A DNA stretch of 64,000 nt, taken from positions 310,001 to 374,000 of the forward strand of contig NZ_CP071445.1 of assembly GCF_017352195.1 (NCBI RefSeq), in the 5' to 3' direction. The notes beneath the pieces are model-generated. The model ran no database searches. It saw nothing but the letters and a program-made list of their open reading frames with translations, and was not told where the DNA came from. This stretch comes from Sedimentibacter sp. zth1 (GTDB lineage Bacteria > Bacillota > Clostridia > Tissierellales > Sedimentibacteraceae). A program made the translations under genes and the position numbers. Shown here in pieces: positions 5,976 through 41,313 of the stretch. Position 1 is the stretch's first letter. Every line of letters starts with the position of its first letter.

Positions 5976-6009
5976 AATAAAAAAATATATATTCAAAGGA
6001 TAAAAAATT

Positions 6010-6441
6010 ATGGACAATTTAGACAGACAAATAATTAACATATTATTAAGAAATGGTAGAATAACTCATGAAGAAATTTCAAAAAAATTGAATATGTCTA
6101 GACCTGCTATTCATCAACGTATTTCAAAGTTGGAACAACAGGGTATCATTGAGGGGTATAGAACTAAGGTAGATTGGAGTAAGCTTGGTTATCATATTAG
6201 TGCATACATATCTATTAAGGTTAAAACTAACGATTTCAATAAATTGATGGATGAAATAGTCAACATCAAACTAGATAATTTTATAATTGAGGAGTGTCAT
6301 AGAGTTACTGGAAGTTGGTGTTTAATTTCAAAGATTAGGACACTTACTCCAGATTATATTACTAAATTTCATGATTTGTTATTAAAAAATGAGAGTATCA
6401 CTGATACTTCAACCGTTTTATTATTGTCATCTATTGAATAA
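6010..6441 (+). CDS. Lrp/AsnC family transcriptional regulator
   Basis: This is a 143-residue DNA-binding regulator of the feast/famine type. An N-terminal winged helix-turn-helix (LDRQIINILLRNGRITHEEI ... MSRPAIHQRISKLEQQG, about residues 3-45) is followed by a RAM ligand-binding domain that includes the ECHRVTGSWC segment. Such proteins usually sense amino acids or their oxoacids. Its location after ptb-buk and a sensor kinase fits control of amino-acid catabolism. It is likely part of the preceding transcription unit, with a 34-base gap and a terminator right after its stop. Confidence 0.9.
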   Translation: MDNLDRQIINILLRNGRITHEEISKKLNMSRPAIHQRISKLEQQGIIEGYRTKVDWSKLGYHISAYISIKVKTNDFNKLMDEIVNIKLDNFIIEECHRVTGSWCLISKIRTLTPDYITKFHDLLLKNESITDTSTVLLLSSIE

Positions 6442-6474
6442 AATAGCTAACATTAGTTAGCTATTTTATTTTTT
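6441..6474. terminator. Bidirectional terminator between lrp-type gene and DHHW gene
   Basis: An 11-bp perfect stem (AAATAGCTAAC, 6441-6451, with 6456-6466) has a 4-base loop and a following T-rich tract. On the minus strand the preceding A run also serves as a T tract. It separates two convergent transcription units. Confidence 0.85.
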
Positions 6475-6488
6475 AATTATTATAAATT

Positions 6489-7727
6489 TTATTTAATATC
6501 AAACATATTATAACTAGAAATACTTCCACTACCATAAAGCATAATTACAATGTCATAATCGCCATTTTCAATATATTCTTTAACAGATTCGTTTTTTACA
6601 AGTCTTAAATCAACCATTGTTACTTTTTTGCAGCTAAGTGATAAAAATGAAGCTACGGGTAAGGCATATGAGTCCTTTATAAGTAATATTTTATAGTCAT
6701 TTTTCGCATTGATATTTTCTATTGTTTCAAAGCTATTGTCTTGACTAAAATATGTACCATATCTATTAGTTTCGATTGGTTCATTAATATCAGATAACGT
6801 TTTGTCAATTATTGAATCATTGAACTTCCCTTCTTTAACTAAGTTGTTTTGGTAGCCTAAAGAAATTTTAAAATAGGTATCAAATTTAGGTGTTATATAT
6901 GTATAATCATCAATGCCCGAGTAAATTCGACCCATCCTTTTACCTAATGATCCCAAAAAGCTTTCTTTTAGTATGTGTGTGTCATAATTATCAATATTTG
7001 TGAAATATCTGTCCTTATCTAATTTAATCTTTAATTTATAATCTAAATAATCTACAATTTCCGTATAGGCCCAAAATGCAGTTTCAGTTTTCCAATGGTG
7101 GTCTGTTTTAAAAAACAATTCTTCTTTATTTAATTCACCTGTATCCAAAGTGTTTAAATTCAAATAGTTAATATTATTGCTTTTTAGTTCATTAAAAAAT
7201 ACATTAACATTTGTATTTGATTTACTATAAATATCTAAACCATTTTTGAATTCTGTATATCCCTCTATATTTTTAGATAAAGCACTAACAAAGACAAATG
7301 GTATATCTAAAGATTGAAGATAATTATTAAAGTTTATTAACTGTTGAGCATTTTTTTTAGTATCCACTAAATAACCTGCAAAATGTAGGAAATTATTATT
7401 GTCTTTTAAAACATAGCCTACACTTGAATCACTTATTAGTCTTTTGTTAAGCAGAAGTTGAGTAGCACCATAAGCTTCTATAAATACTTTCCGACCTGAT
7501 AAATTACTGTTATATGCTTTATTTGTATTGTCTCTAAATATTTCAAATTTTGATGTTAGCTTATCTAAAATGCTTAAATCATTAGTCTCATCTAGTGGTA
7601 GTAATGTTTGTGTTGCAATTGGCCTAATATTGTTTATGATTGTTTTTGAACCAAATACAAAAGAAATTAATAAAAATATTATTGTTATAATTATGTATTT
7701 CAATTTATTTAACATATTATTCTCCAT
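6489..7727 (-). CDS. DHHW family protein (AlgJ/AlgX-like SGNH-type partner of MBOAT)
   Basis: The protein has 412 residues. An N-terminal hydrophobic segment (about 10-26) anchors a large extracellular domain. The family signature TDHHW is at residues 208-212 and supplies the Asp/His pair of the SGNH-hydrolase-like fold; LIKDSY further on resembles its serine block. Such proteins act outside the cell to move acyl groups onto polysaccharides delivered by an MBOAT protein. Its start overlaps the stop of the MBOAT gene by one base (TAATG), so the two are translationally coupled. The acylated polymer is unknown. Confidence 0.85.
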   Translation of the reverse strand: MENNMLNKLKYIIITIIFLLISFVFGSKTIINNIRPIATQTLLPLDETNDLSILDKLTSKFEIFRDNTNKAYNSNLSGRKVFIEAYGATQLLLNKRLISDSSVGYVLKDNNNFLHFAGYLVDTKKNAQQLINFNNYLQSLDIPFVFVSALSKNIEGYTEFKNGLDIYSKSNTNVNVFFNELKSNNINYLNLNTLDTGELNKEELFFKTDHHWKTETAFWAYTEIVDYLDYKLKIKLDKDRYFTNIDNYDTHILKESFLGSLGKRMGRIYSGIDDYTYITPKFDTYFKISLGYQNNLVKEGKFNDSIIDKTLSDINEPIETNRYGTYFSQDNSFETIENINAKNDYKILLIKDSYALPVASFLSLSCKKVTMVDLRLVKNESVKEYIENGDYDIVIMLYGSGSISSYNMFDIK

Positions 7728-28695: not shown

Positions 28696-28791
28696 TTATA
28701 ATATAAATTATCTTTATAAATATTATAGATGTAAGTGTTGTTAGTTGTTATAATGCAATTAATAAAATATATTATTTAGGAGAAAAACTAT

Positions 28792-29226
28792 ATGGTAGAA
28801 TTGAAACCTATTGGTATTAAGAAAAATATAGCCTTGATAGCACATGATAACCTAAAGGATACTATGGTTAATTGGTGCATAAAAAATAAACATATACTTG
28901 AAAAACATATGCTTTGTGGAACTGGAACGACAGCAAAGCGTATAAATCAAGAAACAGGACTAAATGTTTATGGATACAATAGCGGCCCACTTGGAGGGGA
29001 TCAGCAAGTAGGTTGCAGAATAGCAGAAGGATTGATTGATATGGTTATATTTTTTTCAGATCCATTGTCTGCACATCCACATGACCCTGATGTTAAAGCT
29101 CTATTAAGACTTGCACAAGTTTTTGATATACCTATGGCAAACAGTGAAGCAACAGCAGATTTTCTAATAACATCACCTTATATGGAAACAGAGTATACAA
29201 GAAATATTATGAATATAAAACTATAA
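28792..29226 (+). CDS. mgsA: Methylglyoxal synthase
   Basis: This enzyme converts dihydroxyacetone phosphate into methylglyoxal and phosphate, a bypass used when phosphate is short or sugar phosphates pile up. The 144 residues are family-typical. Visible motifs are IALIAHDNLKDTM, the phosphate-binding CGTGTTAKRI, the catalytic SGPLGGDQQVG and FFSDPLSAHPHDPDVKAL. TTAGGAG precedes the ATG. A strong terminator follows the stop. Confidence 0.95.
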   Translation: MVELKPIGIKKNIALIAHDNLKDTMVNWCIKNKHILEKHMLCGTGTTAKRINQETGLNVYGYNSGPLGGDQQVGCRIAEGLIDMVIFFSDPLSAHPHDPDVKALLRLAQVFDIPMANSEATADFLITSPYMETEYTRNIMNIKL

Positions 29227-29256
29227 AAAATAAAAGCCTTTTGGCTTTTATTTTTA
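29227..29256 (+). terminator. Terminator after mgsA
   Basis: TAAAAGCC (29231-29238) pairs with GGCTTTTA (29243-29250) around TTTT, with A and T runs on both sides. It may also serve the convergent small gene at 29266. Confidence 0.9.
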
Positions 29257-29265
29257 AGTATAATA

Positions 29266-29556
29266 TTAAATTATATGTTTTATATCTTTTATTTCATAAT
29301 CGAATTTTCCTTCGATATTTTTGTTGGGTAAACTGTTTATTATCATTAATATTAAACTTTCTTGTGGAGGGTTTGTTTCAGTTACTTGACTACAAGTTAT
29401 TGCATAATCAACACCAATAAAATTTTGCTTTCCATAATAAAGTATAGGTTTAAAAGTAATTCCATGAAAATTTTTAGTTGCACTTATAAATGCAATTCGT
29501 ACCTCATCAGGTAAATTACATTCTTCTAAGTTATTAGTCTCCCATTTCTTTAACAT
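29266..29556 (-). CDS. Small hypothetical protein
   Basis: The 96-residue soluble protein has mixed beta-type sequence and no cysteine cluster or membrane segment. I do not recognise the family. Evidence for a real gene is the clean frame in an otherwise empty, convergent position, plus a TAGGATG site eight bases before the ATG on the minus strand. It is monocistronic. Confidence 0.6.
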   Translation of the reverse strand: MLKKWETNNLEECNLPDEVRIAFISATKNFHGITFKPILYYGKQNFIGVDYAITCSQVTETNPPQESLILMIINSLPNKNIEGKFDYEIKDIKHII

Positions 29557-29715
29557 ATTAACACATCCTAACTCTTTTTTATTTAATTATATAATTTTTA
29601 AGCAAAAATTTAAATTGTTATATTCCGTCAAATTAAAACAAAAAACGACACAAAGATTTATAATTATTTGTTATTTTTCTGTTATCAATGAATACTTTTT
29701 AAAGAGGCGTTATTT

Positions 29716-29925
29716 ATGATATGTCCGGAGGAGTTAGTAGCAATTGTAAATGCATTGTGTGTTGCCATTGCTAAGAATTTAACAATTGACGAATTAGAAA
29801 TACTATCAACTGTTTTAGAGCAAGCATCTTATACCTTTAGAGCAATAGTTATCCAAAGGATAAATATAAAAAATAAAACAGACAAATACAAAGATTCAGA
29901 AGAAATAGATAGAAAGTATAGGTAA
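29716..29925 (+). CDS. Small helical protein (DUF6774-like)
   Basis: The 69-residue protein has the pattern PEELVAIVNALCVAIAKNLTIDELEILSTVLEQ, which resembles the DUF6774 family of short helical proteins in firmicutes. The C-terminal third is highly charged and probably disordered. AGAGGCG precedes the ATG. It is transcribed alone ahead of an AT-rich terminator. Its role is unknown. Confidence 0.65.
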   Translation: MICPEELVAIVNALCVAIAKNLTIDELEILSTVLEQASYTFRAIVIQRINIKNKTDKYKDSEEIDRKYR

Positions 29926-29972
29926 TTATACAAATATAAAATAAACAATACATAAATAATTAAAAATTTAAC

Positions 29973-30000
29973 AAAGTTTTTTATAAAAAAAACTTTTTTT
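29973..30000 (+). terminator. AT-rich terminator after the DUF6774-like gene
   Basis: AAAGTTTTTT (29973-29982) pairs with 29987-29996 around ATAA and runs into seven T residues. It isolates the next operon, which starts at 30148. The rest of 29926-30147 shows no gene. Confidence 0.75.
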
Positions 30001-30147
30001 ATTTATTAATTTGAGATATAATTAGATGTAATAAAAATGATTTCTATGCAAATTAGTTTTGTACAATAACTTAATATTCATCCCAGTATATACATAAGAA
30101 ATATATTATATATTAAATTAAATTTATTATATTGTAGGGAGGAAAAA

Positions 30148-30489
30148 ATGAAAGTTACAGAATTTATAAAGGTACTAAATGCTGAATGTGTTACAAGGCT
30201 AATAACCGATGATAAAAATTATAATTTTGCATTTGCAAGTGATTTAATGAGCGATGTTTTAGCACTTGCTGATAGTTCAACAGTATTGATAACTGGGCTG
30301 AACAATCCACAGGTTATTAGAACGGCTGAAATGATGGATATTTCTCTAATAATATTAGTTAGAGGGAAAATACCAAGTAAAGAAACAATTGAGCTTGCTA
30401 CAGAAGCTAATATAACTATATTAACAACACATTCAATTATGTTTGAAACATGTGGAATATTATATAAGTCCGGATTAAGGCCAATTTAG
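30148..30489 (+). CDS. DRTGG domain protein (first of two)
   Basis: The 113-residue stand-alone DRTGG-domain protein has an N-terminal start MKVTEFIKVLNAECVTRL, the central AFASDLMSDVLALADSSTVLITGL and a C-terminal NITILTTHSIMFETCGILYKSG. DRTGG domains occur in phosphotransacetylases and CBS proteins and may bind nucleotides. It opens a six-gene set with two HATPase proteins, a hydrogenase-like protein and a PHP protein, ahead of rnf. GGGAGGA precedes the ATG. A paralogue lies at 32213. The function is unknown. Confidence 0.85.
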   Translation: MKVTEFIKVLNAECVTRLITDDKNYNFAFASDLMSDVLALADSSTVLITGLNNPQVIRTAEMMDISLIILVRGKIPSKETIELATEANITILTTHSIMFETCGILYKSGLRPI

Positions 30490-30490
30490 T

Positions 30491-30919
30491 ATGGACAAAG
30501 AGAATTTCCTAAAAAGATATAGTTGTGATGTTGTCGCGAATAATTTTAGTAATGCTGGTAAAGGTTCTAGTGATATTAAAAAGAACTTAAAATTGCTAAA
30601 TATTGACCCTGCTATCATAAGAAGAATTGCTATTGTTTCATATGAGGCAGAGATAAATTTGGTAATACACTCTTTAGGTGGAAAATTACACTGTGATATA
30701 TATGAACATAAGATAATAATTATATCGGAAGATATTGGACCTGGTATTCCCAATGTTGAACTTGCAATGACAGAAGGATATTCTACAGCTTCAAGTAGTG
30801 TTAGAGAATTTGGATTTGGAGCAGGTATGGGGTTGCCTAATATGAAGAAATGGTCAGATGATTTTAACATAACAACAAAAAAAACTGGTACAGAAATTTC
30901 TATGACAATTAATATATAG
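30491..30919 (+). CDS. HATPase protein, anti-sigma-factor-kinase-like
   Basis: This 142-residue single-domain ATPase of the GHKL/RsbW type has N-box YEAEINLVIHS (Glu52, Asn56), G1 EDIGPGI (Asp81) and G2 GFGAGMGLPNM (about 108-118). There is no histidine phosphotransfer domain, so it would phosphorylate a protein on serine or act as a switch rather than be a two-component kinase. It starts one base after the stop of the DRTGG gene. No STAS antagonist or sigma factor is adjacent, so its partner is unknown. Confidence 0.85.
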   Translation: MDKENFLKRYSCDVVANNFSNAGKGSSDIKKNLKLLNIDPAIIRRIAIVSYEAEINLVIHSLGGKLHCDIYEHKIIIISEDIGPGIPNVELAMTEGYSTASSSVREFGFGAGMGLPNMKKWSDDFNITTKKTGTEISMTINI

Positions 30920-30953
30920 CATACAAAAAAATAGTTATAGAAAGGAGTTTTAT

Positions 30954-32216
30954 ATGGATTTTTCAATTCTACTAGATTCAGATAAGTGTAGAGGCTGTAC
31001 TAATTGTATGAAGAAATGTCCTACACAAGCAATTAGGATTAAAAATGAAAAAGCAGTTATTGATAAAAACAAATGCATATATTGTGGTGAATGTATAAAA
31101 GCATGCCCATATAATGCATATTCTCCATATGAGGTTAACAAAAATGATTTTGTAGAAACAAAGTTTTCGATTGCTATTCCATCTACAGCTTTGTATGGTC
31201 AATTTCCTAAAGGAACAGAAATATGTAATATTCAAAATTCAATTTTAAAATTAGGATTTGATTATGTATATGATGAAAGTTATGCTGCTGAGTTAACATC
31301 AAAAGCTATAGCAAGAAAAATATCTGAAAGTGAAGGTGTTAAGCCAATTATATCAACTAATTGTCCAGCAATTGTTAGGCTAATAAAGATTAGATATTTA
31401 TCTTTATTAGATAATCTTATAACTGTAGAATCACCAATGGAGATAGCAGCAAGACTTGCAAAACATAATGCACATGAAAATTTTGATGTATGCTCTGAAG
31501 ATATTAAAATTTATTACATTTCTCCATGCCCTGCGGAAATGCTTAGTATTACAAATCCTATTGGGACGAAAAAATCTAGTATAGATAGTGTTATTCCGTT
31601 AAATTCAATATATGGAGATATATATAGAGAAGTATGTAAAAATACAAAACTATGCAATTCAACACCATCTATAAAGGGTATAAAGTGGGCTATTGCAGGT
31701 GGTCAAAGCGAGACAATTAATGTATCATCATATATTTCTGTTTATGGTATAGAAAATATAATTGATATACTTGAAGAAATTGAGAACGGTAAGTTGCACG
31801 ATATAGATTATGTTGAGCTATCAGTGTGTACAGAAGGCTGTGTAGGTGGTATTTTCAATGTAGAAAATCCATTTATTGCGAAAAGAAATATTGATTATAT
31901 AATAAAAAATACCAAAGAAACATTCAATGCAGGTATATCAGACGAAGTATTTAATGATTTGTATGAAAAGAATTTTTTTGATATTGAAATTATAAAAGAA
32001 GATACAAATAAAAGAAAATTAACCTTGGCTGAAGCAGTAGAAAGAATGGAAAGAATAGAACAAATAACTGCTCTTTTGCCAGGCTTAGATTGTGGTTCAT
32101 GTGGTTCGCCTACTTGCAGAGCATATGCTGAGGATATTTGTGATGGACATGCAGATTTATATGGTTGCATTTTATTAAAAGCTAATAAAAAAAGATTAAA
32201 TTCGGAGGAATTATGA
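30954..32216 (+). CDS. [FeFe]-hydrogenase-like Fe-S protein, probably non-catalytic
   Basis: The 420-residue protein has two [4Fe-4S] motifs (Cys12-22 and Cys41-51), a hydrogenase large-subunit C-terminal domain (about 70-320) and a C-terminal Fe-S domain DCGSCGSPTCRAYAED (Cys380, 383, 388, 405). The four H-cluster cysteine positions are kept (Cys137, 192, 292, 296). The usual TSCCPAW motif reads STNCPAI, losing the proton-relay cysteine, and MPCxxKxxE reads SPCPAEM, losing the lysine. This suggests a redox or hydrogen sensor rather than an enzyme. It overlaps the next DRTGG gene by four bases. Confidence 0.88.
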   Translation: MDFSILLDSDKCRGCTNCMKKCPTQAIRIKNEKAVIDKNKCIYCGECIKACPYNAYSPYEVNKNDFVETKFSIAIPSTALYGQFPKGTEICNIQNSILKLGFDYVYDESYAAELTSKAIARKISESEGVKPIISTNCPAIVRLIKIRYLSLLDNLITVESPMEIAARLAKHNAHENFDVCSEDIKIYYISPCPAEMLSITNPIGTKKSSIDSVIPLNSIYGDIYREVCKNTKLCNSTPSIKGIKWAIAGGQSETINVSSYISVYGIENIIDILEEIENGKLHDIDYVELSVCTEGCVGGIFNVENPFIAKRNIDYIIKNTKETFNAGISDEVFNDLYEKNFFDIEIIKEDTNKRKLTLAEAVERMERIEQITALLPGLDCGSCGSPTCRAYAEDICDGHADLYGCILLKANKKRLNSEEL

Positions 32217-32545
32217 AAATATTAGAATTATCTAAGATTTTAAACTGCGAAATTATTGTTGGCACAAGTGAAACTAAGGATATAGATATAAAAAATGTAT
32301 ATATTGGAGATTTATTAAGTATAGTCATGTCAAAAGCACAAGCTGGTTGTGTTTGGATAACAATTCAGACACACTTAAATATTGTAGCTGTTGCTGAATT
32401 GATTGAAATGTCATGCATAATAGTAGCGGAAAATATGGAGATTGAAGGAAGCACAATATTAAAAGCAGAGAAACTTAATATTCCAATATTAAAAAGTAAA
32501 CAAACTTCTTTTGAACTTGCATGCTTAATTAATAATATTAAATGA
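32213..32545 (+). CDS. DRTGG domain protein (second of two)
   Basis: The 110-residue paralogue of the protein at 30148 shares the same layout, with LSKILNCEIIVGT at the start and ILKSKQTSFELACLI at the end. The central GDLLSIVMSKAQAGCVWITIQ is the domain core. ATGA overlaps on both sides couple it to the hydrogenase-like gene before and the PHP gene after. Duplication of this domain around the hydrogenase-like protein suggests that the two act as a pair. Confidence 0.83.
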   Translation: MKILELSKILNCEIIVGTSETKDIDIKNVYIGDLLSIVMSKAQAGCVWITIQTHLNIVAVAELIEMSCIIVAENMEIEGSTILKAEKLNIPILKSKQTSFELACLINNIK

Positions 32546-33246
32546 AATACTATTATGATTTTCATATTCACTCGGATTTATCACCATGTGGTGATAGTGA
32601 CATGACTCCAAACAATATAGCAAACATGGCTCTAATAAAAGGCTTGAATTTCATTGCTGTAACAGATCATAATTCAGTAAATAATAGCAAAGCGGTTGAA
32701 ATTGTAGCGAATAAATTAGGATTAAATACATTGTGTGGTATGGAAATTACAACTAGAGAAGAAATTCATTTATTAAGCTATTTTAAAAATTATGAAGATG
32801 CTAAGGTAGTGAGTGATTTGATTTATGAATCATTGCCTAATATTAGAAATAAGCCAGAATATTTTGGTGAACAGAATATCTACAATGAATATGATGAAAT
32901 TATAGGAACTGTTGATAAACTTCTATTGAGTGCTAGCAAATATACATTAAATGAAATAAGTAATTTAGTGTTTAAATATGATGGTATCATAGTACCAGCT
33001 CATGTTAATAAATTGAATAATGGAATTTTAGGAGTTTTAGGCTTTTTTCCTAGTGATTTAAAATGCAATTTTATAGAAATATACAAAAACAATGTAAATA
33101 ATGACAATAAATTATTAAACGAAAGTGCATATAAAGTATTGTATAATTCAGATGCACATTACTTAAAAGATATTTCAGAACCAATTAATTATATATATAT
33201 AGATAAAAACAAAAGCATTTATGATTATTTATGTTTTAGTATGTAG
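32542..33246 (+). CDS. PHP domain metal-dependent phosphoesterase
   Basis: The 234-residue protein has the PHP metal-site motifs DFHIHSDLSPCGD (His6, His8), VTDHNSV, a glutamate in CGMEITTREEIH, PAHVNK and a late NSDAHYL. It would hydrolyse a phosphoester, perhaps a nucleotide or a phosphorylated partner. It overlaps the DRTGG gene by four bases. Association with DRTGG and HATPase genes suggests that it removes a signal or a phosphate in the same circuit; this is inference. Confidence 0.87.
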   Translation: MKYYYDFHIHSDLSPCGDSDMTPNNIANMALIKGLNFIAVTDHNSVNNSKAVEIVANKLGLNTLCGMEITTREEIHLLSYFKNYEDAKVVSDLIYESLPNIRNKPEYFGEQNIYNEYDEIIGTVDKLLLSASKYTLNEISNLVFKYDGIIVPAHVNKLNNGILGVLGFFPSDLKCNFIEIYKNNVNNDNKLLNESAYKVLYNSDAHYLKDISEPINYIYIDKNKSIYDYLCFSM

Positions 33247-33302
33247 ATTGTTTAAAATGCTTAATTAAATAACAAAAATATATATTTAGGAGATAGTTAA
33301 TT

Positions 33303-33860
33303 ATGAAAGAATTATCATTACATATATTAGATATTGTTCAGAATTCTATTAAAGCTAGTGCAACCTTGATTATTGTCACGTTTTCTGATAATATAGTGAG
33401 TAATTCTGTAAAAATTACTATAGAGGATAATGGGGTTGGTATGGATGAAGATACGTTGCAAAATGTGCTAAATCCATTTTATACTACTAGAACTACCAGA
33501 AAAGTCGGATTAGGACTATCATTGCTAAATGAAGCAGCTAATAGGTGTAATGGGTTTCTAAATATTACTTCAAAAATTGGCATAGGTACTAAGGTTGAAT
33601 GTATGTTTGAAAAAAATAATATTGATACAGCACCACTTGGGAATATTAGTGAAACTATCATTACTATTGTCAATTCAATGTGTACAAGCTGCGATTTGAT
33701 TTATAGACATACAGTAAATGATAATATGTTTGAGTTTTCAACAATCAAAATAAAAGAAATACTACAAGAAGTTGATATAAATAGTCCTGATGTTTTAAAA
33801 TGGATTAGAGAGTATATCAATGAAGCTTTATTTGATTTAAATAGTAAAGCAACTAATTAG
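33303..33860 (+). CDS. HATPase protein, histidine-kinase-like ATPase domain
   Basis: The 185-residue protein starts with SLHILDIVQNSIKASA (N-box Asn14), followed by EDNGVGM and the lid FYTTRTTRKVGLGLSLL. A C-terminal extension (about 110-185) has two cysteines in MCTSC and no recognised fold. It is a second ATPase in the cluster, unlike the RsbW-like one at 30491 because it has a typical kinase lid. No separate H-box or receiver is present. RnfC begins 56 bases later with no terminator between. Confidence 0.85.
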   Translation: MKELSLHILDIVQNSIKASATLIIVTFSDNIVSNSVKITIEDNGVGMDEDTLQNVLNPFYTTRTTRKVGLGLSLLNEAANRCNGFLNITSKIGIGTKVECMFEKNNIDTAPLGNISETIITIVNSMCTSCDLIYRHTVNDNMFEFSTIKIKEILQEVDINSPDVLKWIREYINEALFDLNSKATN

Positions 33861-33916
33861 TTATAAAATGTATGTTGTTACATTTATATATAAAAATATT
33901 TAGAGAAGGTGATGTC

Positions 33917-35251
33917 ATGGACACAAAAGGATTTACTTTTAAAGGTGGTATTCATCCTCCACACTTTAAAAAGTTAACAGAACAAAAGGCAATTGAAAAG
34001 GCAATTGAACCTAAAGTAGTAGTTGTTCCTTTGCAGCAACATATTGGGGCTCCTTGCGAAGCACTGGTAAAAGTTGGAGAATTGGTGAAGGCTGGACAAA
34101 AAATAGGTGAGTCAAAGTCATTTGTATCTGCTAATATACATTCGAGCATATCAGGTGTTGTAAAAAACATTGGTATGTATAATACAAGCGGAGGTTCAAA
34201 GGTAAATTGTATCGTTATTGAGTCGGACGGTAAATTTACAGTACATGAATCAGTAAAACCAATGGGAAATATTGATGAATTAAAAAAAGAGGATATCATT
34301 AATATTATAAAAGAATCTGGTTTTACAGGTATGGGAGGAGCAGGTTTTCCTACTCATGTTAAATTAAGCCCACCGAAAGATAAAAAAATAGATTTTGTAA
34401 TTATTAATGGTGCAGAATGTGAACCATATTTAACTGCTGACCATAGAATAATGCTTGAAAAATCAGACGATGTAGTAGTTGGTGCTAAAGCTATAATGAA
34501 AGTACTTGATGTTGATAAATGTTATATAGCTATAGAAAAAAATAAACCTGATGCTATTGAAACTATGAAAAAGGCTGTAGAATCAATTGACAATATTGAA
34601 GTAGCACAATTAGAGCCAAAATACCCACAGGGTGATGAAAAAAGGTTAATAAATGCTGTAACTGGAAGGGTTGTTCCTTCAGGTGGACTACCTATGGATG
34701 TAGGAGCAGTTGTTCAAAATGTTGGTACTACTGCAACATTGGGCAATACAATTAAAACAGGTATGCCTGTAATTCAAAGAGTTGTTACAGTAACAGGAAA
34801 TGCAATAAAAGAACCTAAAAATTTGCTTGTAAGAATAGGTACAAGCTTTAAAGAAGTTATAGAACAATGTGGAGGATACTCTGAGGAACCAGGAAAAGTA
34901 ATAAACGGTGGACCAATGATGGGTATAGCTCAATTTACAACAGATATTCCTGTTATAAAAGGTACATCTGGAATATTGGTTTTAACTAAAAAAGAATCAG
35001 AAGTTGAAGAACCTAAAAATTGTATAAGATGTGGAAAATGTGTTGAAGCATGTCCAATTCATTTACAACCTTTAATTTTGAGTAAATTATCATTGTTAAA
35101 TAAGTTTGATGAAACTGAAGAGTATCATGTATTAGATTGTATTGAGTGTGGCTCTTGTTCATATGTATGCCCATCAAAACGAAAACTAGTTGAATCTATT
35201 AGAGTTGCTAAGCGTGAAGTAGCAGCAAAACGTAGAAAAGCAAGTAAATAG
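33917..35251 (+). CDS. rnfC: Rnf complex subunit C
   Basis: The 444-residue peripheral subunit starts at ATG 33917, behind GAAGGTGATG. It has the N-terminal GGIHPPHFK region and a flavin/NADH-binding core with GFTGMGGAGFPTHVKL and INGAECEPYLTADHR. Two ferredoxin motifs lie near the C-terminus (CIRCGKCVEACP and CIECGSCSYVCP). It is the NADH-facing end of the ferredoxin:NAD oxidoreductase that pumps Na or H. It is first of six rnf genes in the order CDGEAB. Confidence 0.96.
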   Translation: MDTKGFTFKGGIHPPHFKKLTEQKAIEKAIEPKVVVVPLQQHIGAPCEALVKVGELVKAGQKIGESKSFVSANIHSSISGVVKNIGMYNTSGGSKVNCIVIESDGKFTVHESVKPMGNIDELKKEDIINIIKESGFTGMGGAGFPTHVKLSPPKDKKIDFVIINGAECEPYLTADHRIMLEKSDDVVVGAKAIMKVLDVDKCYIAIEKNKPDAIETMKKAVESIDNIEVAQLEPKYPQGDEKRLINAVTGRVVPSGGLPMDVGAVVQNVGTTATLGNTIKTGMPVIQRVVTVTGNAIKEPKNLLVRIGTSFKEVIEQCGGYSEEPGKVINGGPMMGIAQFTTDIPVIKGTSGILVLTKKESEVEEPKNCIRCGKCVEACPIHLQPLILSKLSLLNKFDETEEYHVLDCIECGSCSYVCPSKRKLVESIRVAKREVAAKRRKASK

Positions 35252-35262
35252 GAGGAAAAACA

Positions 35263-36207
35263 ATGGAAGAAAATAGACTTAAAGCCTCGTCATCTCCTCA
35301 CATTAGGTCAGATGAAAGTGTAAATAAAATTATGCTTGATGTTTTAATAGCTTTATTGCCTGCATTTATAGCAAGTATTTTTTATTTTGGGGTTAAATCT
35401 TTAATATTAGTGGTAGCTTCTGTATTATCTGCAGTTATAACAGAAGCACTTTGTCAAAAAATTATGAAAAGACCAATAACAATTGGTGATCTTAGTGCAA
35501 TTGTTACAGGAGTATTATTAGCATTTAATTTACCATCAACTACACCAGTATGGATGCCTGTTATAGGTAGTGCTTTTGCAATAGCTATAGGCAAACAAGT
35601 ATTTGGCGGATTAGGACAAAACTTTATTAACCCTGCATTAGCAGGACGTGCTGTATTGTTTGCATGTTGGCCAGCACTTATGGGAAATTATGTTGCCCCT
35701 CTTGGAATTGATGCTGTCGCAACAGCTACGCCACTTGCAATTTTAAAAGGTACAGCAGATGCTGGATTGCAAATGCCAGGACTTTTAGAAATGTTTATTG
35801 GTAGAATTCCAGGCTGTATAGGTGAAACTTCAGCGGTTTTACTTATTATAGGTGGTATTTATTTAATAGTTAGAAAAGTAATTTCATGGAGAATTCCAGT
35901 AGCTTATATAGGAACAGTTGCTGTTATAGCTTTGATCTCAGAAGGTAATTTAACAGGAATGTCTTATTATTTATTTGCTGGTGGTCTTATGCTTGGTGCA
36001 TTCTTCATGGCAACTGATTATGCAACTAGCCCAGTTACGCCAAAAGGTAAAATCATATATGGTATTGGTGCTGGAGTATTAACAATGTTGATTAGAAAAT
36101 TAGGAGGCTATCCTGAGGGAGTTTCATATTCTATTTTACTTATGAATGTAGCCACACCTTTAATTGATAAATACACTAGTCCAAAGATATTTGGAGGTGC
36201 TAAATAA
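35263..36207 (+). CDS. rnfD: Rnf complex subunit D
   Basis: The 314-residue integral membrane subunit has about nine helices. The covalent FMN acceptor site lies in DAVATATPLA (the threonine before PLA). Conserved GQNFINPALAGRA and YATSPVTPKGKIIYG blocks are present. It takes part in ion translocation. AGGAGGAAAAAC precedes the ATG. Its stop overlaps the rnfG start (TAATG). Confidence 0.96.
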   Translation: MEENRLKASSSPHIRSDESVNKIMLDVLIALLPAFIASIFYFGVKSLILVVASVLSAVITEALCQKIMKRPITIGDLSAIVTGVLLAFNLPSTTPVWMPVIGSAFAIAIGKQVFGGLGQNFINPALAGRAVLFACWPALMGNYVAPLGIDAVATATPLAILKGTADAGLQMPGLLEMFIGRIPGCIGETSAVLLIIGGIYLIVRKVISWRIPVAYIGTVAVIALISEGNLTGMSYYLFAGGLMLGAFFMATDYATSPVTPKGKIIYGIGAGVLTMLIRKLGGYPEGVSYSILLMNVATPLIDKYTSPKIFGGAK

Positions 36208-36797
36208 TGAAAAATGAAATAGTTAAATTAGGGCTTATTCTATTAATTATTACAGCGCTTGCCGGAACATTTCTTTCTGTAGCTAATCATTTTACAAAAG
36301 ATATTATAGATAAAGCAATTGAAGATGCTAAATCTGGAGAAGAAGTTGTTAAAGCTGTATTTCCAGAAGCTAAATCAATGGACGTATTTGACGAAGCGTT
36401 AGAAGTTAAAATTAAGGAACAAAACGAAAAATTTATTAGTCTTAAAATCTGTAAAGATGAAAGTGGTAATGATTTAGGTTATGCTATTCAAACACTTAGT
36501 ACAAGAAAAGGATATGATGGAGATATAGAAATTATAGTTGGTATTTCTTTAGAAGGTAAAGTTGTAGGTATTAAAGTAACTCAGCATGCTGAAACTCCAG
36601 GACTTGGTTCTCATATTGAAGATGCTGAATATCAACAACAATTTATAGGAAAAAGCACAGATACAGAGTTAAAAGTATCAAAAACACCTAAAGATGAAAC
36701 TGAGGTTGAAGCATTGGGTGGAGCAACTTATTCTTCTAAATCATTCACTAGCGCAATCAATAACGCAATGGCAATTTATAATGAATTTCTTAAATAG
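36207..36797 (+). CDS. rnfG: Rnf complex subunit G (covalent FMN)
   Basis: The 196-residue protein has one N-terminal membrane helix (about 8-28) and an extracellular FMN-binding domain. The flavinylation motif is GGATYSS near residue 172. The HAETPGLGSHI segment is also family-typical. ApbE at 46716 is the enzyme class that attaches this FMN. It is translationally coupled to rnfD. Confidence 0.95.
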   Translation: MKNEIVKLGLILLIITALAGTFLSVANHFTKDIIDKAIEDAKSGEEVVKAVFPEAKSMDVFDEALEVKIKEQNEKFISLKICKDESGNDLGYAIQTLSTRKGYDGDIEIIVGISLEGKVVGIKVTQHAETPGLGSHIEDAEYQQQFIGKSTDTELKVSKTPKDETEVEALGGATYSSKSFTSAINNAMAIYNEFLK

Positions 36798-36829
36798 TTG
36801 TCAAAATATTATAAATTATGGAGGTTATA

Positions 36830-37429
36830 ATGGATAGGTTAAAATATATTAAAAATGGCATCGTAACAGAAAATCCTATTTTTGTCCAATTATTAGGTAT
36901 GTGTCCAACACTTGCTATTACTACTTCGTCTATAAATGGTATGGGTATGGGACTTGCAGTTACAGCTGTTTTAATTTGTTCAAATGCAGTAATATCACTT
37001 ATTAAAAATTTAATACCAGATAAAATTCGTATTCCTGCATTTATTGTTGTTATTGCAACATTTGTTACATTGATAGATATGTTAATGCATGCTTATGTTC
37101 CTGCATTATATGAACAATTAGGATTGTTTATTCCATTAATAGTTGTTAACTGTATCATTCTTGGTAGAGCAGAAGCTTTTGCTTCTAAACATGGAGTATT
37201 TGATTCTGTTTGTGACGGATTGGGTATGGGAATTGGATTTACTATAGCACTTACTTTACTTGGTTCAGTAAGAGAAATTTTAGGAGCTGGAAGTATTTTT
37301 GGGTTTGCTTTATTTGGTGAAGCATTTGAACCAGCTTTGATAATGATAATGCCTCCGGGAGCATTCATTGCACTTGGATTATTAATCGGTTTAGTTAATT
37401 TTATCAATATAAAACGTAAGAAAGCATAG
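36830..37429 (+). CDS. rnfE: Rnf complex subunit E
   Basis: The 199-residue membrane subunit starts at ATG 36830, after TGGAGG at 36819-36824; an upstream ATG at 36818 overlaps that site. It has six helices with the family blocks NPIFVQLLGMCPTLA and IPLIVVNCIILGRAEAFA. It pairs with RnfA, its structural mirror, around a buried iron-sulfur centre. Confidence 0.95.
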   Translation: MDRLKYIKNGIVTENPIFVQLLGMCPTLAITTSSINGMGMGLAVTAVLICSNAVISLIKNLIPDKIRIPAFIVVIATFVTLIDMLMHAYVPALYEQLGLFIPLIVVNCIILGRAEAFASKHGVFDSVCDGLGMGIGFTIALTLLGSVREILGAGSIFGFALFGEAFEPALIMIMPPGAFIALGLLIGLVNFINIKRKKA

Positions 37430-37444
37430 GAGGGAAGATAAATT

Positions 37445-38020
37445 ATGAATTTATTTAGTTTGTTTATAGGAGCATTATTAGTTAATAACATCATTTTTGC
37501 AAAATTCATGGGTATCTGTCCATTCCTTGGCGTATCCAAAAAAATTAATACAGCAATTGGTATGGGTGTTGCCGTAACATTTGTAATCACTCTATCATCT
37601 ATCATTACTTGGTTGTTACAAAACTTTGTATTGAATAAATTAGGACTTGGATATTTACAAACTATAGCATTTATATTGGTTATAGCTGCACTTGTTCAGT
37701 TTGTTGAAATGTTTCTTAAAAAATCTAGTCCTTCATTATATGAAGCATTAGGTGTTTATCTACCTTTAATCACTACAAACTGTGCTGTTTTAGGGGTAGC
37801 TTTATTAAATATTAAAGATAACTATAATTTAGTTGAAACTATTGTAAACTCATTAGGTTCTTCGTTAAGTTTTTTGTTAGCAATAGTTTTGTTTGCTGGT
37901 ATAAGAGAGAGATTAGCACTTGCAGATATTCCTGAATCACTTCAAGGATTTCCAATTGCACTAATTACTGCTGGACTAATGTCTATAGCGTTTTTAGGAT
38001 TCTCTGGCTTAGCTATATAG
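37445..38020 (+). CDS. rnfA: Rnf complex subunit A
   Basis: The 191-residue membrane subunit has six helices and the conserved NNIIFAKFMGICPFLGVSKK and LITTNCAVLGVALLN pieces, each with the cysteine that ligates the shared membrane Fe-S centre. AGGAGGG lies upstream of the ATG. RnfB begins 12 bases after its stop. Confidence 0.96.
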   Translation: MNLFSLFIGALLVNNIIFAKFMGICPFLGVSKKINTAIGMGVAVTFVITLSSIITWLLQNFVLNKLGLGYLQTIAFILVIAALVQFVEMFLKKSSPSLYEALGVYLPLITTNCAVLGVALLNIKDNYNLVETIVNSLGSSLSFLLAIVLFAGIRERLALADIPESLQGFPIALITAGLMSIAFLGFSGLAI

Positions 38021-38032
38021 GGAGGTGAAAAT

Positions 38033-39016
38033 ATGTTAATTGATATATTAAAAGCAGTAGGTGTTTTAGGTGCTTTAGGTTTAGTATTTGGTATAGTATT
38101 GGGTATAGCCGGTAAGATTTTCGAAGTTAAGGTAGATCCAAAAGTAGCTAAAATTAGAGAATTATTACCAGGTGCAAACTGTGGAGCTTGTGGATTTCCA
38201 GGATGTGATGGAATGAGTAAGGCTATGGCAAGTGGTGAAATGCCAGCTACAGGATGTCCAGTTTCAAATGCCGATGCTGTTAAAAAGATAAGTGAAGTTT
38301 TAGGAGTGGAAGCTGTATCAGGTGAAAAAATGGTTGCGAAAGTTTTATGCAAGGGTTGCGAAGGCAAAGCAGTAAAAAAATTCGATTATGATGGAATTAA
38401 AGATTGTAAAGCTGCAATGATTGTACAAGGCGGAGATAAACTTTGTGCTCAAGGTTGCTTAGGATATGGTAGTTGTGTAAAAGTTTGTGATTTTGATGCT
38501 ATTAAAGTTGTTAATGGTGTAGCGGTTGTAGATAAAGAAAAATGTACATCTTGTGGCAAATGTATCGAAGAGTGTCCAAAACACATTATAGAGCTTGTAC
38601 CTTATAAGCAAGAAGTAATTGTAGAATGTAAAAACACAGATTTCGGTAAAGCTGTTAAAGAGGAATGTAAAGTAGGCTGTATCGGTTGTAAAATGTGTGA
38701 AAGAAGCTGTCCGTTTGGAGCTATAAAAGTTGAAAATAATATAGCAAAAATAGATTATACTAAATGTAAACAATGTTTAGTATGTGTTGCTAAATGTCCA
38801 ACGGGTGCTATTTCTGGACAATTAGATAAAAGAGTTAAAGCTCACATCAATGATGATTTATGTGTAGGATGTGGAATTTGCAAAAAAAATTGTCCTGTTG
38901 AAGCAATTGATGGTGAAATGAAGCAAAAACATATAGTGGATGAAGCAAAATGTATAGGATGCAGTGTATGTTTCGAAAAATGCCCTAAAAAAGCAATTGA
39001 GATGCTACCTCGTTAA
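38033..39016 (+). CDS. rnfB: Rnf complex subunit B, extended poly-ferredoxin form
   Basis: The 327-residue electron-entry subunit has one N-terminal helix (about 7-28). The Fe-S domain ANCGACGFPGC has cluster ligands at Cys50, 53, 58 and 75. Six ferredoxin-type motifs follow, starting at Cys138, 171, 216, 245, 277 and 307, giving up to seven clusters. It accepts electrons from ferredoxin and wires them to the membrane subunits. The long form is usual in clostridia and longer than the proteobacterial one. A strong terminator ends the operon. Confidence 0.95.
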   Translation: MLIDILKAVGVLGALGLVFGIVLGIAGKIFEVKVDPKVAKIRELLPGANCGACGFPGCDGMSKAMASGEMPATGCPVSNADAVKKISEVLGVEAVSGEKMVAKVLCKGCEGKAVKKFDYDGIKDCKAAMIVQGGDKLCAQGCLGYGSCVKVCDFDAIKVVNGVAVVDKEKCTSCGKCIEECPKHIIELVPYKQEVIVECKNTDFGKAVKEECKVGCIGCKMCERSCPFGAIKVENNIAKIDYTKCKQCLVCVAKCPTGAISGQLDKRVKAHINDDLCVGCGICKKNCPVEAIDGEMKQKHIVDEAKCIGCSVCFEKCPKKAIEMLPR

Positions 39017-39029
39017 TTACATAAAATAT

Positions 39030-39063
39030 AAAAAGACTGTGAAAATAATTCACAGTCTTTTTT
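39030..39063 (+). terminator. Terminator of the rnf operon
   Basis: GACTGTGAA (39035-39043) pairs with 39049-39057, extended by AAAA/TTTT, with a 5-base loop and a six-T tail. The next 200 bases are AT-rich and without a gene. Confidence 0.95.
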
Positions 39064-39266
39064 GATTACTAAATTATATTTGCTTGAAAAAAAATTATAT
39101 AAATGATAATATTATTCTAATAGTTAAAATTTTATAAAAATGCTATAAAAACAAAGCACTATTTTACAAAATGTGATATAATTTTAATTGATTAAATATT
39201 TATTATACGAGCAATATCAGCATTTATTTTTGATATAAACAAATAAATAAGAGGAAGGAAAAACAA

Positions 39267-39515
39267 TTGAAAAGAGGAAGTTCTATTGCTTGGATTATTG
39301 TAATTCTAGCAGGTTCAATATTTGGCAATATTATAGGTACTGCATTCTCTAAATATGCTCCTCTTCTTACATTTGGAGAGAGTATAGGATTTGGACCGAT
39401 GACTGTAGACTTAAATATTATAAAATTCACAATTGGGTTTAATGCATCTTTGACAATATCAGCTATAATAGGCATAATTTTAGCAATTTTAATTTATAAA
39501 AGAGTTAGTAGATAA
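39267..39515 (+). CDS. DUF4321 family small membrane protein
   Basis: The 82-residue protein starts at TTG 39267, after GAGGAAGGA. Two hydrophobic helices (about 8-25 and 58-78) flank a loop with GFGPMTVDL. This is the DUF4321 family, often found just before radC and mreB in clostridia, as here. Its function is unknown; the context hints at a cell-envelope role. Confidence 0.85.
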   Translation: MKRGSSIAWIIVILAGSIFGNIIGTAFSKYAPLLTFGESIGFGPMTVDLNIIKFTIGFNASLTISAIIGIILAILIYKRVSR

Positions 39516-39575
39516 GGAGTTTGGATAAGAATATAAGAAAATGTAATTAATGTTTAAAATCGGGGGATATTAAAT

Positions 39576-40262
39576 ATGCAAGGTAATTATACGATTAGTA
39601 AGATACCAAAAGAAGAAAGACCAAGAGAAAAGCTATTAAAGCATGGTGCTTCTGTACTTACAAATTCGGAGTTGTTGGCATTGATAGTTGGTGTTGGTAG
39701 TAAAGAAGATTCAGCAATAACATTATCACAAAAAATACTCAATAATAATAACAATGGATTACATAATTTAGTGGAATTAGATGCAATTGCGTTGAAATCG
39801 TACAAGGGTATAAACGATGCAAAAGCTGCAAAAATATTAGCTGTGGTTGAGATAAGTAAAAGAATAAGTAGACTTAAAATAAATAAAGTCAAGATTTCTT
39901 CACCTGAGAGTGTAGCAGTATTGCTTCTTGAAGAGATGAGATATTTGAAAAAGGAATATTTTAAGGTTGCACTTTTAGACACAAAAAACAATATTTTAGC
40001 TATTAAGGATATATCAATGGGTTGTTTGGATAGCACTGTTGTACATCCTCGGGAGGTTTTTGTAGAAGCAATAAAATTAAGCAGTGCTTCAATTATTTTG
40101 GTGCATAATCATCCTAGTGGGGAAGTTGAACCAAGTAAGGAAGATAAAAACATTACTAATCGCATAATAGAATGTGGTAAAATAATAGGTATTAGGGTTT
40201 TAGATCATATTATAATAGGAGATGGAATATTTTTAAGCTTTAAAGAGCATGGATATATGTAA
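39576..40262 (+). CDS. radC: RadC/DUF2466 JAB1-type protein
   Basis: The 228-residue protein has an N-terminal helix-hairpin-helix-like region (GASVLTNSELLALIVGVGSKE) and a C-terminal JAMM/MPN+ metalloprotease fold with LVHNHPSGEVEPSKED (His-x-His ... Asp). It was named for DNA repair, though that role is disputed in the literature. It precedes mreB, as in many firmicutes. Confidence 0.94.
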   Translation: MQGNYTISKIPKEERPREKLLKHGASVLTNSELLALIVGVGSKEDSAITLSQKILNNNNNGLHNLVELDAIALKSYKGINDAKAAKILAVVEISKRISRLKINKVKISSPESVAVLLLEEMRYLKKEYFKVALLDTKNNILAIKDISMGCLDSTVVHPREVFVEAIKLSSASIILVHNHPSGEVEPSKEDKNITNRIIECGKIIGIRVLDHIIIGDGIFLSFKEHGYM

Positions 40263-40296
40263 GGCTTAAAGGCATTTGATTTTACAGGAGGAAAAA

Positions 40297-41313
40297 ATGA
40301 GTTTTGCAGGAAATAATATAGGTATTGATTTAGGTACATCAAACACACTGGTATATGTTAATAAAAAAGGTGTCATAATAAATGAACCGTCAGTTGTGGC
40401 AATTAATACGAATAACAATGAAGTAAAAGCAATAGGTATGGATGCTAAGGAAATGCAAGGTAAAACACCTTACAATATAGAGACAATAAGACCATTAAGA
40501 GATGGAGTTATTGCTGATTTTAATGTTGCAAAAGTTTTAATAAAATATTTTATTGATAAAGCACTAAATAACAATAAATTTGCTAGACCGAAAATATGTA
40601 TATGTGTTCCAGTTGGTGTTACATCAATAGAAAGAAAAGCTGTTGAAGATATTGCACAAAATGCTGGAGCAAGAGTCATACAGTTAGTTGAAGAACCAAA
40701 AGCGGCGGCTATAGGTGCGGGAATTGATGTTGCAGCAGCTATAGGAAATATGGTAGTCGATATAGGTGGCGGAACTACTGAAATTGCAGTTATTTCACTT
40801 GGAGGAATTGTTGTAAGTGATTCTTTAAGATTAGCTGGAGATAAAATTGACATTGAAGTTAAAGAGTATGTTAAAAGAAAGTATAAATTAGATATTGGTA
40901 TTAAATCTGCTGAAATTATAAAAACTAAACTTGGAAATGCTTGTGAAGAATATTATACTACTAATATTGAAGGTATAGATAATTCTGAAAAGATTACAAC
41001 TATTAATACTACAGGTATAGATATGGTTACCGGTCTTCCAAGAACTATTGAACTAACTGCAGAGGAAATCAGAGAATCAATGTCTGAAACTATAAACAAT
41101 ATAGTGAGTGGTGTTAAACGCTGCTTAGAGAGAACACCTCCTGAATTATCATCTGATATTTATTGTAATGGTATTTATTTAACAGGTGGTGGTGCACTTA
41201 TAAAAGGCTTAGATTTATTTATGCAAAAAGAAACAGGATTAATTGTTAGAGTAGCTGAGAGTCCTTTGGAATGTGTTGCTTTAGGAGCAGGTAAAATTTG
41301 TGAAGATATGTAA
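40297..41313 (+). CDS. mreB: MreB rod-shape-determining protein
   Basis: The 338-residue actin-like ATPase starts at ATG 40297, after ACAGGAGGA. It has IGIDLGTSNTLVYV (phosphate 1), the VEEPKAAAIGAGIDV helix, VVDIGGGTTEIAVIS (phosphate 2) and YLTGGGALIKG (adenosine). It forms membrane filaments that steer wall synthesis. It heads mreB-mreC-mreD-pbp2. Confidence 0.96.
   Translation: MSFAGNNIGIDLGTSNTLVYVNKKGVIINEPSVVAINTNNNEVKAIGMDAKEMQGKTPYNIETIRPLRDGVIADFNVAKVLIKYFIDKALNNNKFARPKICICVPVGVTSIERKAVEDIAQNAGARVIQLVEEPKAAAIGAGIDVAAAIGNMVVDIGGGTTEIAVISLGGIVVSDSLRLAGDKIDIEVKEYVKRKYKLDIGIKSAEIIKTKLGNACEEYYTTNIEGIDNSEKITTINTTGIDMVTGLPRTIELTAEEIRESMSETINNIVSGVKRCLERTPPELSSDIYCNGIYLTGGGALIKGLDLFMQKETGLIVRVAESPLECVALGAGKICEDM

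Follow-up and report, generated by a model that had tools for sequence, protein, structure and literature searches.

A six-gene sensory-hydrogenase module beside rnf in Sedimentibacter: a possible redox control unit rewired from a bifurcating hydrogenase

Introduction

The [FeFe] hydrogenases of group D (M2e) are putative sensory proteins, whose genes are known to precede those of bifurcating hydrogenases and to lie close to kinase genes (PMC3561251, PMC3608648, PMC8163306). They are marked by two N-terminal [4Fe-4S] motifs, a C-terminal Cx2Cx4Cx16C motif, Ser or Thr at CpI position 353 and the lack of a PAS domain, and one of them, TamHydS of Thermoanaerobacter mathranii, turns over H2 (PMC8163306). 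Glu252 is highly conserved within the group, and the TamHydS variants E252V and E252D show <0.01% of H2 oxidation and retain 10-20% of H2 evolution (PMC10407848). The protein was studied in purified form with a synthetic cofactor, the authors having no sample from the native host and relying on the conservation of HydEFG (PMC10407848). A sensory hydrogenase with a histidine kinase beside the Rnf genes was noted in Vallitalea guaymasensis L81 (PMC6163223). Here we describe a related module of six genes in a window of 64,000 nucleotides of Sedimentibacter sp. zth1 (NZ_CP071445.1, positions 310,001 to 374,000). It encodes two stand-alone DRTGG proteins (DRTGG1 and DRTGG2), two ATPases (HATP1 and HATP2), a hydrogenase-like Fe-S protein homologous to TamHydS (HydS) and a PHP-family phosphoesterase, and lies directly before the genes of the Rnf complex.

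A sequence-only reading of the window knew of no described pathway with this full set. That statement is not supported in this form, since group D sensors near kinases and bifurcating hydrogenases are in print, once beside Rnf; the set is a variant of the known sensory-hydrogenase neighbourhood. What was not found in print is the six-part module, the exchange of hydrogenase for Rnf at a single site, the corresponding changes at the H2 site, and the presence of the module where no known maturase is found. The search, which covered titles and the first parts of abstracts with subscription journals mostly absent, gave no paper on the six-gene set, the residue change or maturase-less modules.

Results

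Conservation of the module and of its link to rnf

The link between the module and rnf is real and conserved. HydS matches at E <1e-95 were obtained in 32 of 41 relatives, and a profile match at E 1e-60 or better is found in 184 of 392 genomes sampled from the class. Loci were read in three sets that overlap in some genomes: 31 readable loci of relatives; the best 80 loci of a scan of named genomes, which is not a census; and 55 loci of the class, taken from 45 of the 57 families with a match, families without listed coordinates being excluded. L074 (a cut gene), L210, L235 and L236 were left out of the analysis. The best 80 named loci include those of Sedimentibacter, Dethiosulfatibacter, Caloranaerobacter, Thermoanaerobacter, Tepidanaerobacter, Lutispora, Petroclostridium and Deltaproteobacteria, and the loci of Spirochaetes and Caldatribacterium among them carry fewer module partners. 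All six module genes are found nearby in 104 of the 166 loci with a full-length sensor, and five of the six in another 39, loci cut by contig ends being included. The co-occurrence of the six families, on which the sequence-only reading had made its proposal depend, is thus seen across Clostridia and beyond, and rnf adjoins the module in 27 of the 31 readable loci of relatives. In 26 of these 27 all six genes precede rnfC in the window's order, the remaining locus starting inside the module at a contig end; a complete rnfCDGEAB is present in 22 of the 27 stretches, some being cut by contig or stretch ends. As a separate observation, HATP1-HydS pairs without DRTGG or PHP genes occur in L117, L122 and L111, where they adjoin CheW (by Pfam), a receiver domain or a response regulator (both by eye), neighbours that hint at other outputs.

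hydABC and rnf as alternative neighbours of the module

The enzyme encoded beside the module varies among lineages. Context labels were set by script, two being corrected by hand (L207 to HYD, hydABC adjoining; L208 to NUO+RNF); those of L211-L234 were assigned coarsely by eye, with L213 (a nuoE match at a contig end) and L231 (an Fd2S gene) filed as 'none', adjoined by neither enzyme. The relatives give 27 RNF loci, two cut and two 'none'. The best 80 named loci divide into 8 RNF, 26 HYD, 8 with a hydrogenase upstream or divergent, 2 HYD+RNF, 2 NUO+RNF, 10 with NuoE/NuoF and no visible HydA, 14 cut and 10 'none'; the 55 class loci, after correction, into 4 RNF, 25 HYD, 4 with a hydrogenase upstream, 2 HYD+RNF, 2 NUO+RNF, 2 with NuoE/NuoF lacking HydA, 4 cut and 12 'none'. 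Outside the window's order hydABC, which encodes a bifurcating hydrogenase, is the commonest identified partner, with Rnf in the minority; within that order, and in a few other lineages, the partner is rnf.

The two arrangements are found at a shared chromosomal position. In Thermoanaerobacter wiegelii (L090) hydABC follows the module and in the window rnf does, each then being followed by DUF4321-radC-mreB, with maf also present in L090; this common flank makes it look as if one cassette replaced the other at one site. L069 carries the module at the same DUF4321-radC-mreB site with neither hyd nor rnf. Transitional loci with both enzymes are also found, in the order module-hyd-rnf (L088, L146, L157 and L161), and others have module-nuoE-HATP2-Fd-nuoF-rnf without hydA (L103, L148, L163, L208, L217 and L218). 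HATP2 lies between nuoE and the next subunits (nuoF) in the usual hydrogenase operon, and is the last gene of the module in rnf operons.

Other neighbours were recorded as well. In the f22 family (L179, L219-L224 and L226) the module lies upstream of pyrK-pyrD-like genes, a single gene intervening in L179 and L219. In L212 and L214 neither hyd nor rnf but a molybdenum hydroxylase and an Fe-S flavoprotein come after the module; Pfam assignments were made for L221 and L212 only. Of 71 readable HydA proteins in HYD-type loci, 69 carry TSCSP in place of TSCCP at the first H-cluster motif; the remaining two, which have TSCCP, come from extra HydA genes in L112 and L127. A gene of about 290 codons often found upstream of the module was considered as a single family and rejected, its members being PhzF-like or SPOR-like by eye.

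HydS and its altered H2-site residues

The motifs of the window's Fe-S protein indicate that it is a descendant of the group D putative sensory hydrogenases. Pfam finds two N-terminal [4Fe-4S] motifs and a shortened H-domain, and no PAS domain; the C-terminal Cx2Cx4Cx16C is made up of C380, C383, C388 and C405, the four cysteines of [4Fe-4S]H are C137, C192, C292 and C296, and Ser occupies CpI position 353, as in group D (Ser/Thr). Residues are otherwise given in TamHydS numbering, which was adopted through the HydS of T. wiegelii, identical to TamHydS at the five sites checked (C20, A137, E252, E289 and C379). In 180 de-duplicated HydS, from which 11 near-identical rows had been removed, the [4Fe-4S]H cysteines are kept in 180/180 and those of the N- and C-terminal clusters in 178-180, with gaps and a single Ser accounting for the rest. 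The proton-path residue E289 is also kept, as E288 in the window and in 40/40 RNF rows before de-duplication. At two sites the window HydS departs from group D, having Asn (N136) for Ala at 137 and Gln (Q251) for Glu at 252. The position of CpI K358, a residue in contact with a cyanide ligand, is Glu (E195) in the window HydS alone; one other HydS has Asn, and the remainder of the 180 have Lys or Arg. The C-terminal cluster stretch of HydS (window 32079-32171) matches in profile residues 40-76 of RnfB in a solved Rnf structure (9eri_B).

Residues 137 and 252 differ between genomic contexts. Gln is found at 252 in 33 of 36 RNF loci, the exceptions L083 (with distant rnf genes), L180 and L228 keeping A137/E252, and in 5 of 6 NUO+RNF loci. 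Residue 252 of the 55 HYD loci is Glu in 51, Ala in 2 and Gln in 2, and Glu is kept in all HYDup (11/11) and HYD+RNF (4/4) loci. Residue 137 varies in the RNF type (N 15, L 8, Y 4, A 3, H 3, S 1, T 1, M 1) and is nearly always Ala in the HYD type (A 51, S 2, N 1, D 1); the combination of Q252 with A137 occurs in none of the 180 HydS. A uniform Q252 beside a variable 137 looks like re-tuning at 252 in this lineage, and not like decay. The data on E252 variants in the accessible part of PMC10407848 do not include E252Q itself.

A tree of 115 HydS and one outgroup was obtained by a quick search, in which 42 of 113 inner branches were starred and 42 were weak. One group, nested at 86-93% support, contains 27 of 30 rnf-type HydS together with four NUO+RNF, two 'none' and one HYD row; L180, L083 and L196 lie outside. 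At least four changes between RNF and HYD contexts are needed on this tree. In another family, L196 and L230 (G230, G328) carry an orphan HydS with S137/Q252, which in L196 is located before rnfD; Q252 may have arisen there a second time.

Modules in genomes with no H-cluster maturase over cut-off

HydF scored over its cut-off in 259 of the 392 class genomes. It was missing from 44 of the 184 module-bearing genomes versus 88 of the 208 module-less ones, in a listing that counts one HydF-positive genome more than 259. Among 30 of the 44 HydF-less genomes, with all candidates scored, neither HydF nor HydG was over cut-off (0/30 each); sub-threshold HydG matches occurred in two (3.7e-67 with an internal stop, and 1.2e-12), and two of the 30 genomes are single contigs. 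HydE was over cut-off in 0/37, that is in these 30 and in seven HydF-less relatives (six rnf-type, one cut), HydG having been scored in the 30 only; one HydE match was sub-threshold, at 1.1e-59. As a control, HydE was over cut-off in 4/4 HydF-positive genomes. HydF was also missing from 15 of 32 module-bearing relatives, several of whose assemblies are incomplete. In the window's family, rnf-type modules without HydF or HydE over cut-off are present in G002, G003, G012, G015 and G021, and the module of G004 is cut before rnf. The absence of HydEFG was considered as a mark of the rnf type and rejected, since it is found across all contexts. For the HydA of maturase-less genomes, either the di-iron site is missing, or maturase genes were missed, or maturation follows an unrecognised route.

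The five partner proteins

The predicted structure of DRTGG1 (AlphaFold2, predicted local distance difference test [pLDDT] 95.5) matches AF1212 with Z 17.2 and a root-mean-square deviation of 1.8 over 112 aligned residues, and the DRTGG domain of a pyrophosphatase with Z 15.1. DRTGG1 contains a D-L-M-S motif in which D32 and S35 are invariant (20/20), and DRTGG2 a D-L-L-S motif with invariant D33 and S36 (21/21); in the alignment D-L-x-S is common to the two and not present in the genome's own pyrophosphatase-like DRTGG. In HATP1, E52, N56, D81 and GFGAGMG are invariant (20/20), and E52 and N56 correspond to the N-box Glu and Asn of SpoIIAB/RsbW. Its TIGR01925 match (1.2e-10, 41.4 bits) is under the equivalog cut-off of 135, and its best PDB matches are anti-sigma F factors at about 1e-10. 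HATP1 may also resemble RsbT. No sigma factor or STAS protein is among the six module genes; the rest of the genome was not searched for them. In two genomes (L088 and L146) DRTGG1 and HATP1 are fused as one protein of 269 residues, with a Rex gene upstream in a 4-base overlap. Replacement of DRTGG1 by Rex in these loci was considered and rejected, because DRTGG1 is present in the fusion and Rex lies upstream of it; L133 was likewise rejected as a third fusion, its N-terminus having no match to DRTGG1.

The PHP protein keeps H8, H10, D42, H43, E68, H76, H154, D204 and H206 without exception (21/21), nine residues that we take to be the full set of metal ligands, and its PDB relatives are EndoQ and PHP phosphoesterases. 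HATP2 lacks a phospho-acceptor domain and has a conserved C-terminal extension of its own. By sequence it matches sporulation kinase B in the PDB (6e-16), and its predicted model (pLDDT 91.5) is closest in fold to MutL/GyrB-type ATPases (Z 13).

Layout of the locus and the junction with rnfC

In the open reading frame (ORF) list of the window, the six module ORFs all lie on the + strand directly 5′ of rnfCDGEAB (Table 1). The order and spacing given for them in the sequence-only reading are borne out by the ORFs and by Pfam, all six proteins matching above the curated cut-offs. HATP1 begins one base past the end of DRTGG1, and the HydS/DRTGG2 and DRTGG2/PHP junctions overlap by 4 bases each. 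The Rnf genes follow in CDGEAB order; of these, only rnfC and rnfB were scored against families. The module is single-copy in the window genome, which consists of one contig of 3.13 Mb; it stands at rnf and at neither of two further loci identified by eye as NuoE-NuoF-HydA. DRTGG matches over cut-off in this genome are the two of the module and one in a frame of 541 amino acids, taken as a CBS-pyrophosphatase. Elsewhere in the genome, L042 (G000:C1:3032000-3046000, about 5347-6794) contains a group B [FeFe] hydrogenase split by a stop or frame change; next to it are an intact sensory hydrogenase of PAS type and a gene for a PP2C-like phosphatase, all named by eye.

Table 1. Features of the module and its surroundings in the window (feature; position; strand; description and best match).
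DRTGG1	30148..30489	+	stand-alone DRTGG-domain protein, 113 amino acids; Pfam PF07085 1.8e-8
HATP1	30491..30919	+	SpoIIAB/RsbW-like ATPase, candidate Ser/Thr switch kinase; Pfam HATPase_c 2.5e-6
HydS homologue	30954..32216	+	hydrogenase-like Fe-S protein, 420 amino acids; Pfam Fe_hyd_lg_C + Fer4 + FeS
DRTGG2	32213..32545	+	second stand-alone DRTGG protein; Pfam PF07085 5.8e-7
PHP protein	32542..33246	+	PHP-family metallo-phosphoesterase, 234 amino acids; Pfam PF02811 1.3e-11
HATP2	33303..33860	+	histidine-kinase-type GHKL ATPase; Pfam HATPase_c 8.6e-16
rnfC	33917..35251 (likely start 33917; longest ORF from 33872)	+	TIGR01945 1.8e-168, 560.6 bits vs cut-off 245.95
rnfD, rnfG, rnfE, rnfA, rnfB	35263..39016	+	ORFs; rnfB TIGR01944 4.6e-46
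Palindromic terminator-like hairpin	39030..39062	listed on -	symmetrical stem, 14 bases past rnfB
DUF4321 then radC	39267..40262	+	flank also found after hydABC in Thermoanaerobacter wiegelii

The start of rnfC is probably the ATG at 33917, as aligned by eye with the starts in relatives, and not 33872, which leaves 56 bases between HATP2 and rnfC. The sequence-only reading saw no terminator between the module and rnfC, and a scan of 28700-40400 agrees with it: the 4 terminator-like sites listed (3.5 expected) are all on the - strand and none is on the + strand. The refuting condition named in that reading, a promoter and expression of rnf independent of the module, had a mixed outcome. The gap is short in the window. 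Among relatives, the distance before rnfC (to the start of the longest ORF) measures 46-370 bases, with one of 1328, in 37 rnf-type rows that include near-copies; a strong terminator-like hairpin precedes rnfC in L065 and L066, and a weaker one in L072. Given the gaps, the TATAAT sequences considered below and the hairpins of L065 and L066, rnf of those genomes may be transcribed from a separate promoter. Promoter and terminator consensus scans of the window gave about the numbers expected from shuffled sequence. A Rex-box scan found 4 sites in the window against 3.0 expected, not above chance, and no clear pattern by context.

Discussion

Our analysis leads us to suggest, tentatively and with a little less than even confidence, that the module is a phosphorylation-type redox control unit, and that in the window's lineage HydS reads low-potential electrons, not H2, and tunes Rnf. 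Equally tentative is the view that the module was rewired in this lineage from HydABC to Rnf, which likewise passes electrons between ferredoxin and NADH. A redox-sensing role of HydS fits the kept cluster cysteines and the altered H2-site residues seen in the alignments. The earlier suggestion of an Fe-S redox sensor adjusting Rnf stands to this extent, and is limited by the minority place of Rnf as partner outside the window's order.

In the proposed mechanism, the N- and C-terminal [4Fe-4S] clusters of HydS, predicted from the conserved cysteines, would be loaded by reduced ferredoxin as the presumed donor. The HydS of the lineage would no longer split H2, owing to the replacements next to its di-iron site, at A137 and E252 and, in the window, at K358 as well. 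The state of the clusters would then set the activity of HATP1, which would act on its neighbour DRTGG1, a partnership supported by their fusion in two genomes. As a guess, the mark may be phosphorylation of the invariant serine of D-L-x-S in DRTGG1 and DRTGG2. The PHP protein, having a full metal site, may reverse the mark or remove a nucleotide ligand of the DRTGG proteins. HATP2 travels with NuoE/NuoF or rnfC, and from this position may relay the signal to the enzyme or to its transcription; the Rex gene next to the fused DRTGG1-HATP1 in two genomes may be noted beside this step.

A number of observations weigh against this proposal. The window genome encodes HydF, so that H-cluster maturation is possible there, and 23 of the 37 maturase-less cases keep A137/E252; nine of the 37 (L162, L188, L189, L194, L211, L215, L229, L232 and L233) have an intact-looking HydA (TSCSP, MPC, CxGGC) adjoining the module. 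H2-treated E252V TamHydS still reduced its accessory clusters (PMC10407848). Intact A137/E252 is found in the rnf-linked L180, L228 and the doubtful L083, and Q252 in the hyd-linked L164 and L211. Only three independent pairs of residue and context lie on starred branches (sign test p = 1), so few that residue change and context are inseparable from shared descent, and the residue change of the lineage appears on the tree to be largely one event on one branch. Neither enzyme adjoins the module in 24 of 166 loci after L207 was moved, cut loci being counted separately. The promoter-like TATAAT occurs in the gap between module and rnfC in 36 of 37 rows, though DNA so rich in A+T gives it by chance too.

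Alternatively, HydS may be a working H2 sensor here too, with a full H-cluster, the module tuning Rnf by H2 as the authors of PMC6163223 proposed for Vallitalea. Descent from group D, H2 turnover by TamHydS (PMC8163306), the HydF of the window genome and the retention of E289 and the H-domain cysteines all agree with it. We nevertheless regard it as unlikely, given Asn for A137 and Gln for E252, with Glu for K358 in the window only, the loss of H2 oxidation in TamHydS E252 variants (PMC10407848), and the rnf-type modules in genomes without HydF or HydE over cut-off.

It is also improbable that the neighbourhood is historical, the module regulating something else and rnf or hyd merely sharing the locus under promoters of their own. 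The TATAAT-bearing gaps of 46-370 bases, the hairpins of L065 and L066, the common 'none' contexts, and the modules near pyrK-pyrD in f22 and beside the molybdenum hydroxylase of L212 agree with such a history. However, most loci long enough to reveal a partner have hyd or rnf, intermediates with both recur, HATP2 moves inside the nuoE-nuoF operon, and the pyrK-pyrD case is one family. A role in assembly or quality control of flavin and Fe-S complexes (NuoEF, RnfC), with chaperone-like GHKL ATPases and HydS as Fe-S scaffold, is somewhat less probable still: it agrees with the place of HATP2 between nuoE and nuoF, with its MutL/GyrB-type fold and with the match of RnfC to the NuoF-type Complex1_51K domain (Pfam), but HATP1 is nearest to anti-sigma kinases and Rnf or HydABC likely often occurs without the module, 208 of 392 class genomes being without it at E 1e-60.

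The redox control unit proposed here for the rnf-linked lineage can be carried over to the whole class, although we consider the extension doubtful. Group D 'sensory hydrogenases' would then not be primarily H2 sensors and their di-iron site would be optional; they would be ferredoxin or Fe-S redox sensors driving a DRTGG-kinase-PHP relay over the ferredoxin:NAD enzyme of the locus, the rnf-linked lineage having given up H2 chemistry. Modules in genomes with no maturase over cut-off, and a lineage changed at a residue whose loss removes H2 oxidation with the cluster cysteines kept, make it testable what these sensors sense and control, and five partner proteins of HydS can now be named. If the proposal is true, the module would be a concrete candidate for linking the regulation of Rnf to the electron pool of these fermenters.

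Comparison with known systems

The closest described system is the group D cluster with TamHydS (PMC8163306, PMC10407848, PMC13104023), which shares the domain order, Cx2Cx4Cx16C, Ser at CpI 353 and E289 with the window; the T. wiegelii locus of group D type has all six module genes. The TamHydS-type cluster differs in lying beside hydABC, where here the neighbour is rnf, and the window has N137, Q252 and Glu at K358. Vallitalea guaymasensis L81 likewise has genes for a sensory hydrogenase and a kinase immediately adjoining those of Rnf, but the account concerns two genes in one genome with H2 control assumed, and the part of PMC6163223 accessible to us contains no analysis of module, residues or maturases. 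The PAS-type sensory hydrogenase of group C (M2f) with a PP2C-like phosphatase in the Sedimentibacter genome itself (L042) also places a sensor hydrogenase beside a phosphatase gene, yet its 14-kb stretch has no DRTGG, HATP1, PHP or HATP2 match. Among the partner proteins, DRTGG1 shares its fold with the DRTGG domains of CBS pyrophosphatase and AF1212, whereas the DRTGG proteins of the module are a stand-alone pair with D-L-x-S. HATP1 shares the fold family and the N-box Glu and Asn with the partner-switch kinases SpoIIAB and RsbW; it differs in scoring below the equivalog cut-off, in the lack of a sigma factor or STAS protein from the module, and in apparently having a DRTGG protein as its partner.

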